Of a stretch of DNA of 39,845 bases, positions 29,825 to 34,305 are shown piece after piece. The translations under genes and the position numbers were made by a program. The DNA is from Gemmatimonas sp. (lineage in GTDB: Bacteria > Gemmatimonadota > Gemmatimonadetes > Gemmatimonadales > Gemmatimonadaceae). The stretch covers positions 1 to 39,845 of the forward strand of contig NZ_JAJTHI010000059.1 in NCBI RefSeq assembly GCF_021298855.1. The letters are read 5' to 3'. Every line of letters begins with the position of its first letter. Within the stretch, counting starts at the first letter, position 1. Under the pieces are notes generated by a model. That model was not told the DNA's origin. It did not search any database and saw only the letters and a program-made list of their open reading frames with translations.

Positions 29825-30370
29825 TCAGGCGCGCGCCAACTGCCGCGCGTGCTCGCGCACGTCGGCAGGCCACGCGGCCATGTGGGCATCCATGCGATCG
29901 AGGTCACCGGCAAAAAGCGCGCGGGTCACCTCCTCGTATTCGGGCAGATGGCCAGCCATGGCGTGCAGGAAGTGATACGCCGCCTCCCGCGCGTTGCGCG
30001 TGTGCTCATCGGCCGCGCCCGCCTTGCGGGCATGCTCGACGATCTTGCGCAGCGTGACGGATGTTCCACCCGGTTGCGCGCCCAACCACTCCCACTGGTG
30101 TGGCAGCAGCGTGACCTCCCGCGGGACGACACCGAGGCGCGGGCGCCCCGGACCCCGAGGCGTTGCTGGGGCCGACTCGGCTGCCGCGTAGCGCGCGGCC
30201 ACTTCCGCCGGTGAGCCCCGCGTGTCGATGTCCACCTGCCGCCCGGTTGCGTTCTCGAAGAGCAGCAGCCACTTCGACCCGCTGCGGCTTGCCTCCAGCA
30301 GAGCCACGGCCATGTCCGGAAGCGAACCGGCCGCGAGCCGTCGATGCCCGTCGAAGAGGGTATGTGTCAT
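29825..30370 (-). CDS. DUF2239 family protein
   Basis: A 181-residue cytoplasmic protein. Family motifs: LLLFENATGRQVDIDTRG, then GRPRLGVVPREVTLLPHQWE, and WLGAQPGGTSVTLRKIVEHA (each described separately; residues about 35-115). It has a helical, histidine-bearing C-terminal half. Molecular function is unknown. Its promoter is overlaid by an 11-bp inverted repeat that also faces the exported nucleosidase gene, so it is probably repressed and possibly co-regulated with that operon. Confidence 0.9.
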   Translation of the reverse strand: MTHTLFDGHRRLAAGSLPDMAVALLEASRSGSKWLLLFENATGRQVDIDTRGSPAEVAARYAAAESAPATPRGPGRPRLGVVPREVTLLPHQWEWLGAQPGGTSVTLRKIVEHARKAGAADEHTRNAREAAYHFLHAMAGHLPEYEEVTRALFAGDLDRMDAHMAAWPADVREHARQLARA

Positions 30371-30387
30371 GGATGAATGGGTTGGTT

Positions 30388-30423
30388 TTGTCCGGGTATA
30401 AGTAGAGTTTATACCCGGATCAA
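30388..30423. promoter_or_regulatory. Bidirectional promoter covered by a palindromic operator
   Basis: The arms TCCGGGTATAA (30391-30401) and TTATACCCGGA (30409-30419) are exact reverse complements around a 7-bp spacer. On the minus strand TTGATC (30423-30418), 17 bp, TATACC (30400-30395) makes a promoter for the DUF2239 gene. On the plus strand TTGTCC (30388-30393), 16 bp, TATACC (30410-30415) makes one for the nucleosidase operon. A dimeric repressor would shut both. The regulator is not in this window as far as I can see. Confidence 0.65.
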
Positions 30424-30446
30424 TTGTCTGCGCAAGAGGTTGTACC

Positions 30447-31547
30447 GTGCGTTCCGCGCTCCTCCCGTCGCTCCGGGGGTGGCTGGCGGCGCAATGCGAT
30501 GTTCATTCCCACATGCTCTGGAAACCGACCCTTTGGCCAGGCCGGCGCCGTCCGGCGTGGCGGCTCGCCATCGTCGTTGCCGCCACCACTGCGGCGTGCA
30601 CACCCCGCACGGCGCCGTCCCCGGCGCCCCCGGCCTCGTCCGTGTCGTCGGCGTCATCGTCGCCCGTGGCCGCGGTACGCGATACGACCCCGCGCGTGGC
30701 GATCATGTCGGCGTTCGATGCCGAGTGGCAGGCGTTACGCGCCGCCACGGCGATTACCCGTACCGAGGTGGTGAACAATCGCAGTTACCACTTCGGGCGG
30801 CTGCGCGGGCACGACGTGGTGCTGCTGCTGAGCGGCTTCAGCATGGTGAACGCCGCCATGACCACGCAGGCGCTGCTCGACCGGGTTCCGGTGCGCGCCA
30901 TCGTGTTCAGCGGCATCGCCGGCGGCGTGAACCCCGGGCTCAACGTGGGGGATGTGACCGTGCCCGCGCAGTGGGGGAACTACCAGGAACAGCTCTTCGC
31001 GCGCGAAACGCCGCAGGGATTCGTTCCGTCGCGGACGACGACCGCGTTCGGCGGCTACGGGATGATGTTCCCGCAGGGCACGTCCGTGACTGCGCGCCAC
31101 GCGCCGCCGGACTCGCTGGAGCGACGCTTCTGGTTCCCGGTGGACTCACTGGCGCTTGGCATTGCGCGCACCATTGCCGGTCGCTTCACCCTCAAGCGCT
31201 GCGTGCAGGCCGATCGCTGTCTCGATCACACCCCGAAGCTGGTGGTGGGCGGCAACGGGGTGAGCGGCCCCACCTTCGTGGACAATGCGGCGTACCGCGA
31301 GTGGGTATGGCGCACCTTCCGCGCCGATGCGCTCGACATGGAATCGTCGGCGGTGGCGGTGGTGGCGTATGAAAACCGGGTACCGTTCATCGCCTTCCGC
31401 TCACTCTCGGATCTCGCCGGCGGCAACGAGGCACCCAACGAGGCGCGCATCTTTGGCCGGCTGGCCTCCGAGAATTCGGCGGCGGTGGTCATGGCGTTCC
31501 TCGACGCACTGCCGCGCGAGGCCTTCGCCAGGGCGCGCGATCGGTGA
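30447..31547 (+). CDS. Exported nucleoside phosphorylase/nucleosidase-type protein
   Basis: A 366-residue protein with a long N-terminal leader (hydrophobic residues about 40-52, ending TTAAC) that should place it outside the cytoplasm, perhaps as a lipoprotein. The catalytic domain is of the MTA/SAH nucleosidase and PNP/UDP phosphorylase superfamily: PRVAIMSAFDAEWQAL, VVLLLSGFSMVNAAM, VFSGIAGGVNPGLNVGDVTVP, and ADALDMESSAVAVVAY with the purine- and ribose-binding glutamates. It starts with GTG at 30447, supported by AAGAGG 7 nt upstream; an in-frame ATG at 30513 is possible. Its last codon overlaps the GTG of the permease gene, so the two are coupled. It probably frees purine bases from nucleosides for import. 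Confidence 0.88.
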   Translation: MRSALLPSLRGWLAAQCDVHSHMLWKPTLWPGRRRPAWRLAIVVAATTAACTPRTAPSPAPPASSVSSASSSPVAAVRDTTPRVAIMSAFDAEWQALRAATAITRTEVVNNRSYHFGRLRGHDVVLLLSGFSMVNAAMTTQALLDRVPVRAIVFSGIAGGVNPGLNVGDVTVPAQWGNYQEQLFARETPQGFVPSRTTTAFGGYGMMFPQGTSVTARHAPPDSLERRFWFPVDSLALGIARTIAGRFTLKRCVQADRCLDHTPKLVVGGNGVSGPTFVDNAAYREWVWRTFRADALDMESSAVAVVAYENRVPFIAFRSLSDLAGGNEAPNEARIFGRLASENSAAVVMAFLDALPREAFARARDR

Positions 31548-32845
31548 AGCGGTACTTCGGCTTCGCGACGCACGGGACCACCTGGCGCACCGAGATCATG
31601 GCCGGTGTGGCCACGTTTCTCACGATGGCGTACATCATCGTGGTGAACCCGGCCATCCTCGAGGCCGCCGGCCTGCCGCGTGAGGCGTCCATCACGGCCA
31701 CGATTCTCTCGGCCGCCTTCGGCACCCTGATCATGGGGGTGTACGCACGGCGCCCGTTCGCCATCGCGCCCTACATGGGCGAGAACGCCTTCATCGTGTT
31801 CACCGTGGTCAAGGGATTGGGGTTCCCCTGGCAGACGGCGCTGGGCGCGATCTTCCTGGCCGGCGTGCTCTTCACGCTGCTCACCCTGCTGGGCGTGCGC
31901 CGCTGGCTCGCCGCCGGCATTCCGGCCAATCTCAAGCACAGCTTCACGGTGGGGATCGGGTTGTTCCTCACCTTCATTGGCCTCAATGCGATGGGTGTGG
32001 TGCAGCTGGGGGTTCCGGGCTCGCCGGTGGCGCTGGGGGCGCTCAATCGCGCGACCACGCTGGTGGCCATTGGCGGGTTCTTCGCCACTGCCGTGCTGCT
32101 GGCCCGGAAGCATCGCAGTGCACTGCTGCTGGGCATCATCATCACGTCGGTCCTTTCCTTCGGTGCAGGCATCACGCCGCTCCCAGCGGGGGTAGCGAGC
32201 GCGCCGCCGTCGCTCGCGCCGCTCTTCGGGCAGCTCGACATTGCGGGCGCGCTGACGCTCAAGGCGCTCCCCGTGGTGGTGATCGTCTTCGTGATGGCCT
32301 TCGTGGATACCATTGGCACCCTCATTGGCCTGGGCGCGCGTGCGGGGCTGCTCGATGCCTCGGGCAATCTCCCCGACATGGAGAAGCCCATGCTCGCCGA
32401 TGCCGTGGTGAACATGGCGGCGCCGGTGTTCGGCACCACCACCTGCGGCGCATTCGTGGAGTCGGCGGTGGGCATCGAGGCCGGTGGGCGTACCGGGGTC
32501 ACGGCCATCGTGGTGGCCGTGCTCTTTCTCGCGTCGCTGTTCTTTGCGCCGCTGTTCACCGCCATTCCCGCGCACGCCACCGGCGTGGCGATCGCCTCCA
32601 TGGGCGTGCTCATGCTGGGTGCCATGGCCGCGCTCGACTTTGCCGACTACACCGAGTGGGTGCCGGCCTTCCTCACGATCGTGCTCATGGCCTTCACGTA
32701 CAACATTGGCGTGGGGATGACGGCCGGCCTGCTGGCGTATCCGGTCCTCAAGGTTGGCACGGGGCGCGCGACGGAGGTGCCGGCCGCCATGTGGTGGTTG
32801 GCGGCCATGTCCCTGCTGTTCTACGCGGTATACCCATACCACTGA
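31544..32845 (+). CDS. NCS2 family purine permease (AzgA/PbuG-like)
   Basis: A 433-residue inner-membrane carrier with about 12-14 hydrophobic segments, for adenine, guanine or hypoxanthine with proton symport. Family marks: MAYIIVVNPAILEAAGLP near the start, MGENAFIVFTVVKGLGFPWQ, FTVGIGLFLTFIGLNAMG, FVDTIGTLIGLGAR and GTTTCGAFVESAVGIEAGGR (the substrate-binding segments). It begins with a GTG overlapping the TGA of the nucleosidase (31544-31547), a sign of translational coupling. The last 25 bp overlap the convergent mqnD gene. The neighbouring nucleosidase would supply its substrate. Confidence 0.93.
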   Translation: MKRYFGFATHGTTWRTEIMAGVATFLTMAYIIVVNPAILEAAGLPREASITATILSAAFGTLIMGVYARRPFAIAPYMGENAFIVFTVVKGLGFPWQTALGAIFLAGVLFTLLTLLGVRRWLAAGIPANLKHSFTVGIGLFLTFIGLNAMGVVQLGVPGSPVALGALNRATTLVAIGGFFATAVLLARKHRSALLLGIIITSVLSFGAGITPLPAGVASAPPSLAPLFGQLDIAGALTLKALPVVVIVFVMAFVDTIGTLIGLGARAGLLDASGNLPDMEKPMLADAVVNMAAPVFGTTTCGAFVESAVGIEAGGRTGVTAIVVAVLFLASLFFAPLFTAIPAHATGVAIASMGVLMLGAMAALDFADYTEWVPAFLTIVLMAFTYNIGVGMTAGLLAYPVLKVGTGRATEVPAAMWWLAAMSLLFYAVYPYH

Positions 32846-33627
32846 CCGGCCCCGCCCGCGAGGCGCTGCATGGCGGCCAGCCCCTCGTCGCCGATGTCGA
32901 GACTGTGGGCGTTCACGTAGAGCGCGATATGCTGCGCACACACCTCGCGTGACATTTCCTGCGCGTGTGCGCCCACATAGTCGCGGCTGGCCTCGGGATG
33001 ATCGAAGGCGTACTGCACGGAATCGCGAATGGCGCGCTCGAGGTCGACGCGCAGCGCGGCGTCCAGATCACGGTGGGCGCAGATCCCCGCCAGCGGCACC
33101 GGGAGCCCCGTGGTCTGCTCCCACCAGTCGCCCAAATCGACCACCTGTACCAGGCCGTGCGCGGCATAGGTGAACCGGCTTTCGTGAATGATGAGGCCCG
33201 CATCCACCTCCCCGTCGGTCACGGCGCGGAGGATGCGATCGTAGCGCAGCTCGACGACCTCGCTCAGTTCGGGGGCGGCGAGGCGCAGCAGGCGATACGC
33301 CGTGGTCTCGCGTCCCGGGATGGCCAGTCGGCCGCGGGCGGCCTGAGCCAGCGACTGTGCCTCGCGTGCCACCACAAGCGGCCCCACGCCCATGCCCAGC
33401 GCGGCCCCGCTGCGGAGCAGCGTATAGCGGGCGCCGACCGCCGCGAAAGCGCCGACGCTCAGCTTCGTGAGATCGAAGGCCCCCGCATGGGCGCGCCGGT
33501 TGAGCTCCTCGATGTCGAGCAGCACCGGCCGGATGCGCACCGGCGCGTTCACCAGCCCGTGCACGAGCGCGTGAAAGGCGAACGTGTCGTTGGGGCAGGG
33601 CGAGAATCCGAAGGTCAGCTCACGCAT
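32821..33627 (-). CDS. mqnD: 1,4-dihydroxy-6-naphthoate synthase (menaquinone, futalosine pathway)
   Basis: A 268-residue cytoplasmic enzyme that converts cyclic dehypoxanthine futalosine to 1,4-dihydroxy-6-naphthoate. FGFSPCPNDTFAFHALVHG at the N-terminus is highly characteristic. Next come DLTKLSVGAFAAV, IPGRETTAYRLLRL, EVDAGLIIHESRFTY and LPVPLAGICAHR of the periplasmic-binding-like fold. It lies directly downstream of mqnB with an 8-bp overlap (33620-33627), so the two are one operon. MqnA, MqnC and later genes are elsewhere. Confidence 0.95.
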   Translation of the reverse strand: MRELTFGFSPCPNDTFAFHALVHGLVNAPVRIRPVLLDIEELNRRAHAGAFDLTKLSVGAFAAVGARYTLLRSGAALGMGVGPLVVAREAQSLAQAARGRLAIPGRETTAYRLLRLAAPELSEVVELRYDRILRAVTDGEVDAGLIIHESRFTYAAHGLVQVVDLGDWWEQTTGLPVPLAGICAHRDLDAALRVDLERAIRDSVQYAFDHPEASRDYVGAHAQEMSREVCAQHIALYVNAHSLDIGDEGLAAMQRLAGGAGQWYGYTA

Positions 33628-34204
33628 GGTGCGGCCGTGTGGTTCGCAGGGCGGCCACGAGCGGCGGGGTGATGTCCACGATGGCGGCGAGGGCAACGCC
33701 GAACTGCCAGCGCGTCCGATCGGGCTCCTCGATGTCATTCGAGATGGCTCGCACCTCGATGGCGGGCACCCCGGCGAGTTGTGCGGCCCGCAGGACGGCG
33801 AAGCCTTCCATCGCCTCGACGTCGCAGTCGCTGGTGCCCCCCACGCGGCCGCTCGTGCCAATGCACGTGCATCGGGCGTGCGGGAGCTGGTCTCGAACGA
33901 GTTGCAGCAACGCTGCCGAGGGGGTGAGGTCGCGCGGCGCCCACTCGGCGGGGAGGTCCCCCAGATCGCAGTAGCGCGACCGCTCCCCCACCACGAGCGT
34001 GCCGGGCGCGCAGCCCCAGCGCCGCCGGGCGCCGGCAATGCCCACGTGCAGCAGCACATCGGGGCGATGCTCGGTGATGGCGCGCGCGGTGCGCACGGCG
34101 GCTTCCACCGGTCCCACGCCGCAGAGCGCGCCAATCCAATCGCCAGGTGGTGCCAGTTCATGGCTGGTGGCGGCAACCACGAGGATACGAGCGGGCGAAG
34201 TCAT
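33620..34204 (-). CDS. mqnB: Futalosine hydrolase (menaquinone biosynthesis)
   Basis: A 194-residue nucleosidase of the PNP/MTAN superfamily that removes hypoxanthine from futalosine. ILVVAATSHEL at the N-terminus, LLHVGIAGARR, GTLVVGERSRYCDLG, CDVEAMEGFAVLRAAQLAG and VRAISNDIEEPDRTRW are typical of MqnB. The 8-bp overlap with mqnD makes one operon. The released hypoxanthine could enter the same salvage as that taken up by the adjacent purine permease, though the genes face each other. TACACT lies 7 nt before the ATG. Confidence 0.93.
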   Translation of the reverse strand: MTSPARILVVAATSHELAPPGDWIGALCGVGPVEAAVRTARAITEHRPDVLLHVGIAGARRRWGCAPGTLVVGERSRYCDLGDLPAEWAPRDLTPSAALLQLVRDQLPHARCTCIGTSGRVGGTSDCDVEAMEGFAVLRAAQLAGVPAIEVRAISNDIEEPDRTRWQFGVALAAIVDITPPLVAALRTTRPHHA

Positions 34205-34217: not shown

Positions 34218-34230
34218 AGCGGATCGGCGC

Positions 34231-34305
34231 GGTGTGCCGGGACCCGGTGTGCCGGGACCCGGTGTGCCGGTTCTCGGTGTGCCGGGACCCGGTGTGCCGG
34301 TTCTC
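34231..34305. repeat. 15-bp tandem repeat, five copies
   Basis: Two variants of a 15-bp unit alternate: GGTGTGCCGGGACCC (A) and GGTGTGCCGGTTCTC (B) in the order A-A-B-A-B. The last copy runs into the stop codon of the SRPBCC-VOC gene (34304-34306), and the first begins 26 bp upstream of the mqnB start. Copy number may vary between strains. Confidence 0.9.

Follow-up and report, generated by a model that had tools for sequence, protein, structure and literature searches.

DUF2239 proteins as probable DNA-binding autoregulators with a paired 20-bp palindromic operator

The DUF2239 family probably consists of DNA-binding autoregulators, hitherto unrecognised and most likely repressors, that have the 20-bp palindrome AWTTTTACCC·GGGTAAWATT (the dot marks its centre) as their operator; we put the probability of this reading at about three in four. 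That DUF2239 itself is the binder is the simplest reading, since operator and gene are found together over large distances and on mobile DNA, since the operator is rare elsewhere, and since it stands at partner genes in genomes with DUF2239. The protein would bind the palindrome, of which the DUF2239 promoter normally has two copies: the first adjoins the -35 element (TTGAC), the second sits in the spacer up against the -10, and bound protein would block RNA polymerase. The proposed effect is repression, which is argued from the way the units cover the -35 and the -10. DUF2239 would control itself plus a few partners; the predicted targets are its own gene, a GIY-YIG gene and a DUF1330-like gene. 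A family annotated only as uncharacterised becomes a testable candidate transcription factor with a defined site and with controls at hand.

The locus from which this account is developed lies in a stretch of 39,845 nucleotides from Gemmatimonas sp., here called the window (Table 1). In this lineage the nucleosidase/permease pair divergent from DUF2239 is probably under the same control.

Table 1. Features of the window, in order of position
Feature	Position	Strand	Details
DUF2239 (PF09998), 181 aa, predicted autorepressor	29825-30370	-	Pfam E 3.6e-70
Operator unit 2, adjoining the DUF2239 start	30384-30403		20-bp near-palindrome GGTTTTGTCC·GGGTATAAGT; matrix scores 14.3 (+), 12.7 (-)
Plus-strand hexamers, TTGTCC and TATACC	30388-30393 and 30410-30415	+	16 bp apart; read from sequence
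Exact 11-bp inverted repeat	30391-30419		TCCGGGTATAA-N7-TTATACCCGGA, 7-bp loop
Minus-strand hexamers, TTGATC and TATACC	30423-30418 and 30400-30395	-	17 bp apart; read from sequence
Operator unit 1, the more upstream of the two for DUF2239	30407-30426		20-bp near-palindrome GTTTATACCC·GGATCAATTG; matrix scores 18.3 (+), 14.8 (-)
MTA/SAH-type nucleosidase, divergent neighbour	30447-31547	+	PF01048 E 1.6e-37; start codon uncertain
Signal/lipobox-like segment, nucleosidase N-terminus	30447-30560		VVAATTAAC
Xanthine/uracil-type permease (Xan_ur_permease)	31544-32845	+	PF00860 E 6e-42; overlaps nucleosidase stop
Second PNP_UDP_1 protein, futalosine hydrolase-like, and the gene after it	32821-34204	-	Futalosine hydrolase match below NCBIfam cut-off
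15-bp tandem repeat	34230-34300		4.7 copies of CGGTGTGCCGGGACC; directly upstream of the futalosine hydrolase-like gene

A double operator accompanies DUF2239

In the family of the window, the Gemmatimonadaceae, 37 of 148 genomes (some of the genomes compared are incomplete drafts) have a DUF2239 gene, and a repeated motif, TTAYCCGGRTAATATTGAC...TTAYCCGGRTAATAT, stands upstream of most of these genes. Two units were found at 28 of 35 such genes, as against 1 of 617 background windows; some of the genes have a single or weak unit. A relaxed pattern for the pair matches the window's own genome once, at the DUF2239 locus; among the 148 family genomes, its other matches that are not repeat-like fall only in G066, G069 and G098, all DUF2239 carriers, and three genomes give additional GC-rich matches.

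Scanning the genomes of 84,980 species brought in 80 further DUF2239 loci, from Alpha-, Beta- and Gammaproteobacteria, Acidobacteriota, Armatimonadota, Planctomycetota, Verrucomicrobiota, Desulfovibrio and Marinimicrobia, and it is the matrix made from these that gives the consensus above, with the central CCCGGG as its most conserved positions. At least one unit lies upstream in all 80 loci and two in 77; the centres are 26-29 bp apart in nearly all of them, and spacings of 27 or 28 dominate. The threshold for a single unit was reached by 5 of 1600 shuffled upstream regions, and the 800 kb of DNA flanking the 80 loci held one other strong match. The pair is likewise present upstream of distant plasmid DUF2239 genes in Paenibacillus (Bacillota), two Deinococcus (Deinococcota) and Acinetobacter (32-45% protein identity); operator and gene stay together through about ten bacterial phyla. 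Caulobacter vibrioides is another species with the DUF2239 family. Both units of the Acinetobacter pair read ACCCTGATAA, with the same altered centre, and the conserved core of that DUF2239 has diverged too. A pattern search through 80 genomes from G150's family gave double operators in 4 of them (L169-L172).

The units are tied to promoter elements: in the orthologues unit 1 ends in TTGAC, the -35, and a TATAAT-like -10 follows directly after unit 2. In unit coordinates TTGACA occupies +9 to +14 (unit 1) and the -10 begins at +4 (unit 2), so that the length of the promoter spacer should be the unit spacing minus 11; a unit spacing of 27-28 bp would then give a spacer of 16-17 bp.

The window as a contracted variant

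A preliminary description of this DNA had noticed an exact inverted repeat and taken it for a symmetric operator over a bidirectional promoter. The repeat is real: the 4.09-Mb genome contains it a single time, and the number expected from dinucleotide shuffles is 0. The genes around it had also been named correctly (DUF2239, nucleosidase and Xan_ur_permease). The repeat itself is better read, from comparison with the orthologues, as the product of two side-by-side 20-bp palindromic units. Scored with the matrix from the 80 loci, the window has two units of the consensus type upstream of DUF2239 (18.3 and 14.3 on the better strand), both lower than in most relatives, and no other match above 4 over its whole length. 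A single dimer on one 29-bp site was rejected, as the orthologues show two separate palindromes; what survives of the earlier proposal is that the operator over the DUF2239 promoter is genuine and that, in this genome, it also stands before the nucleosidase, 20-60 bp ahead of its start.

The centres of the window's units are 23 bp apart, and those of G098, whose DUF2239 is 93% identical, 21 bp; neither has the 25-29 bp spacing tied to TTGAC and the -10, and the TTGAC after unit 1 is absent from the window. These two loci have contracted, divergent variants of the double operator. In the window the TTGAC is gone and the promoter has been rebuilt. As for the bidirectional promoter, candidate hexamers do lie at the places that had been given for them, each pair matching the consensus at 4/6 + 4/6 (8/12 per strand); a scan for sigma-70 promoters with at least 9/12 matches and 16-18 bp spacing found none at the operator.

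Recurring partners

Twelve genomes were scanned for further copies of the operator. Such copies lie upstream of a gene of the GIY-YIG nuclease family (L119, L121), of a DUF1330-like gene with an alpha/beta hydrolase gene after it (L124) and, in Dyella, of a DUF1330-like gene (L126). Five Gemmatimonas genomes have the GIY-YIG gene directly before DUF2239, with the operator ahead of the pair. Across the Gemmatimonadaceae an operator of its own stands at the GIY-YIG gene in 7 of the 9 genomes that also have DUF2239 and in 0 of the 4 that do not (P 0.02, shared ancestry uncorrected); an eighth genome, G008, has DUF2239, DUF1330-like and GIY-YIG genes on one strand behind the operator, and the GIY-YIG gene of G053, a DUF2239 carrier, has none. 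In the Xanthobacteraceae, the family of Bradyrhizobium G149, the GIY-YIG gene is found in 11 of 100 genomes and DUF2239 in 33, all 11 of the former are among the latter (P 1.4e-6, again with shared ancestry uncorrected), and all 11 genes carry the operator, at least six of them as divergent neighbours of DUF2239.

Among the 80 fetched loci, the neighbour of DUF2239 is the GIY-YIG gene in nine and the DUF1330-like gene in one. On the Paenibacillus plasmid pJ45TS6 (L214), genes for DUF2239, DUF1330 and an alpha/beta hydrolase stand in a row with a canonical double operator; the row adjoins tet(L) and a rep gene, and the plasmid is mobilizable. No operator was found at relatives of the GIY-YIG gene beside a MarR gene in Janthinobacterium (L221) or beside a gene for a LuxR-type/DUF2087-matching protein in Peribacillus (L222), nor at the DUF1330-like gene of G048, a genome without DUF2239. 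The recurring partners of DUF2239 are the GIY-YIG gene and the DUF1330-like gene. Regulators are found repeatedly with the GIY-YIG nuclease-like family, whose proteins have about 110 aa (L119, L121, L142-L144, L147, L173-L183, L218-L220).

The purine neighbours

The window's nucleosidase scores 78.7 bits against TIGR01704 (cut-off 73.8), and the permease is presumably co-transcribed with it; the lipobox-like segment at the nucleosidase N-terminus suggests an exported lipoprotein nucleosidase beside a purine-type permease. The preliminary description had inferred from this arrangement a general tie between DUF2239 and purine or nucleoside supply, and that tie is not supported. The nucleosidase is present in 5 of 30 genomes of the genus and stands beside DUF2239 only in the window species and in G098 (nucleosidase 89% identical). 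No operator is found at its relatives in G048, which has no DUF2239, or G127, which has DUF2239 elsewhere, and none was seen on the nucleosidase fragment of G157, where the contig starts inside the gene. An operator common to purine genes across species was not found, and a purine regulon was rejected on the relatives in G048 and G127. Conservation of the palindrome upstream of orthologues had been named beforehand as the point on which the proposal would stand or fall: it is conserved for DUF2239 and not for the nucleosidase.

Relatives of the nucleosidase away from DUF2239 lack the operator, so that two close species account for the whole of the purine connection, which is a lineage-specific juxtaposition; the operator follows DUF2239, not purine genes. 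The neighbourhood of a gene in a single genome can thus mislead about its partners (here the purine genes), and comparison removes the false one.

Further along the window, the gene after the futalosine hydrolase-like gene resembles one for a menaquinone-pathway MqnD-type protein; a search gave no confirmation.

The DUF2239 protein

The protein of the window belongs to PF09998, which it matches over residues 3-179 of its 181 (235.9 bits, cut-off 25). In an alignment of 34 sequences the most conserved stretch is an invariant core, GRPxLGVVxREVTLLPRHWEWLxxQPGGASxxLRxLV, at residues 75-111. The AlphaFold model has a mean pLDDT of 89.4; two such models predict the core as an extended segment followed by helices at 90-98 and 102-139, an arrangement that would suit a ribbon-helix-helix or helix-turn-helix. 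No sequence in the PDB matches DUF2239, and Foldseek and VIA-align returned no significant structural match to the models. An hhalign comparison with the ribbon-helix-helix family BrnA aligned in register and was insignificant (probability 0.3%). The changed residues H91/Q92 were considered as the cause of the window's spacing and rejected: Paenibacillus is changed there too (Q, D), and its operators are canonical.

In the open-access literature searched, no paper names DUF2239 or PF09998, and COG3644 and the operator strings returned nothing relevant. The family and its operator appear to be undescribed, and autoregulation via paired palindromes is of a known kind. A wider claim is more tentative and falls a little short of an even chance: that DUF2239 is a new pan-bacterial regulator family whose DNA-binding domain resembles none in the PDB, and that it forms with the GIY-YIG and DUF1330-like proteins a small, mobile, self-regulated module.

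Alternative explanations

The alternative that deserves most weight, unlikely as we judge it, supposes that another regulator encoded elsewhere (XRE/MmyB, MarR or similar, for example) binds the operator, and that DUF2239 is its conserved target. DUF2239 has no recognised DNA-binding domain, as this account would expect, and one Bradyrhizobium locus (L137) has operator-like sites, in mid-locus, flanked by an SDR-family gene and, divergent from it, the gene of an XRE-type regulator; those sites are one more target, or else the similar motif of another regulator. The supposed other regulator would, however, need to have moved along with DUF2239 in each transfer while never being encoded next to it, since the operator tracks DUF2239 through the phyla and onto plasmids; and the operator is nearly absent elsewhere in DUF2239 genomes and missing from the GIY-YIG and DUF1330-like genes of genomes that lack DUF2239. 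A census of neighbour clusters for a universal adjacent regulator was confounded by antisense reading frames.

Far less probable is the earlier proposal of a purine-responsive repressor, one dimer of which, on one symmetric site, would couple DUF2239 to purine salvage. It would account for an operator that lies between DUF2239 and the nucleosidase/permease genes in the window and in G098 and is overlapped by both possible promoters, but not for a site made of two palindromes, for its absence from nucleosidase relatives without an adjacent DUF2239, or for its pairing elsewhere with DUF2239, GIY-YIG and DUF1330-like genes. Hardly credible is the suggestion that no regulator is involved and the dyad is a mere by-product of two overlapping promoters with TATA-like -10s: the AT-rich arms do overlap possible -10 elements on both strands, but the conservation spans 20 bp, twice, and the best-conserved part, the central CCCGGG, belongs to no promoter hexamer.

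Comparison with known systems

In its proposed role DUF2239 resembles the small autoregulatory repressors of the ribbon-helix-helix class (CopG/MetJ/BrnA type): it is short, its own promoter is the main target with few others, two palindromic operators are tied to promoter elements, and the invariant core is predicted to have a short extended segment and then two helices. It differs from them in the lack of a detectable sequence or structure match to the ribbon-helix-helix fold, in an extra N-terminal alpha/beta domain and a C-terminal helical domain, and in its operator, which is 20 bp long and centred on CCC·GGG, with a spacing of mostly 26-29 bp.

A second comparison is with the pairings of GIY-YIG with a LuxR-type/DUF2087 protein in Peribacillus and with MarR in Janthinobacterium, where the same GIY-YIG family adjoins a regulator gene. 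In Proteobacteria and Gemmatimonadota, DUF2239 takes the place of the LuxR-type/DUF2087 or MarR regulator beside GIY-YIG; unlike in those pairings, the GIY-YIG promoter here bears the DUF2239 operator.
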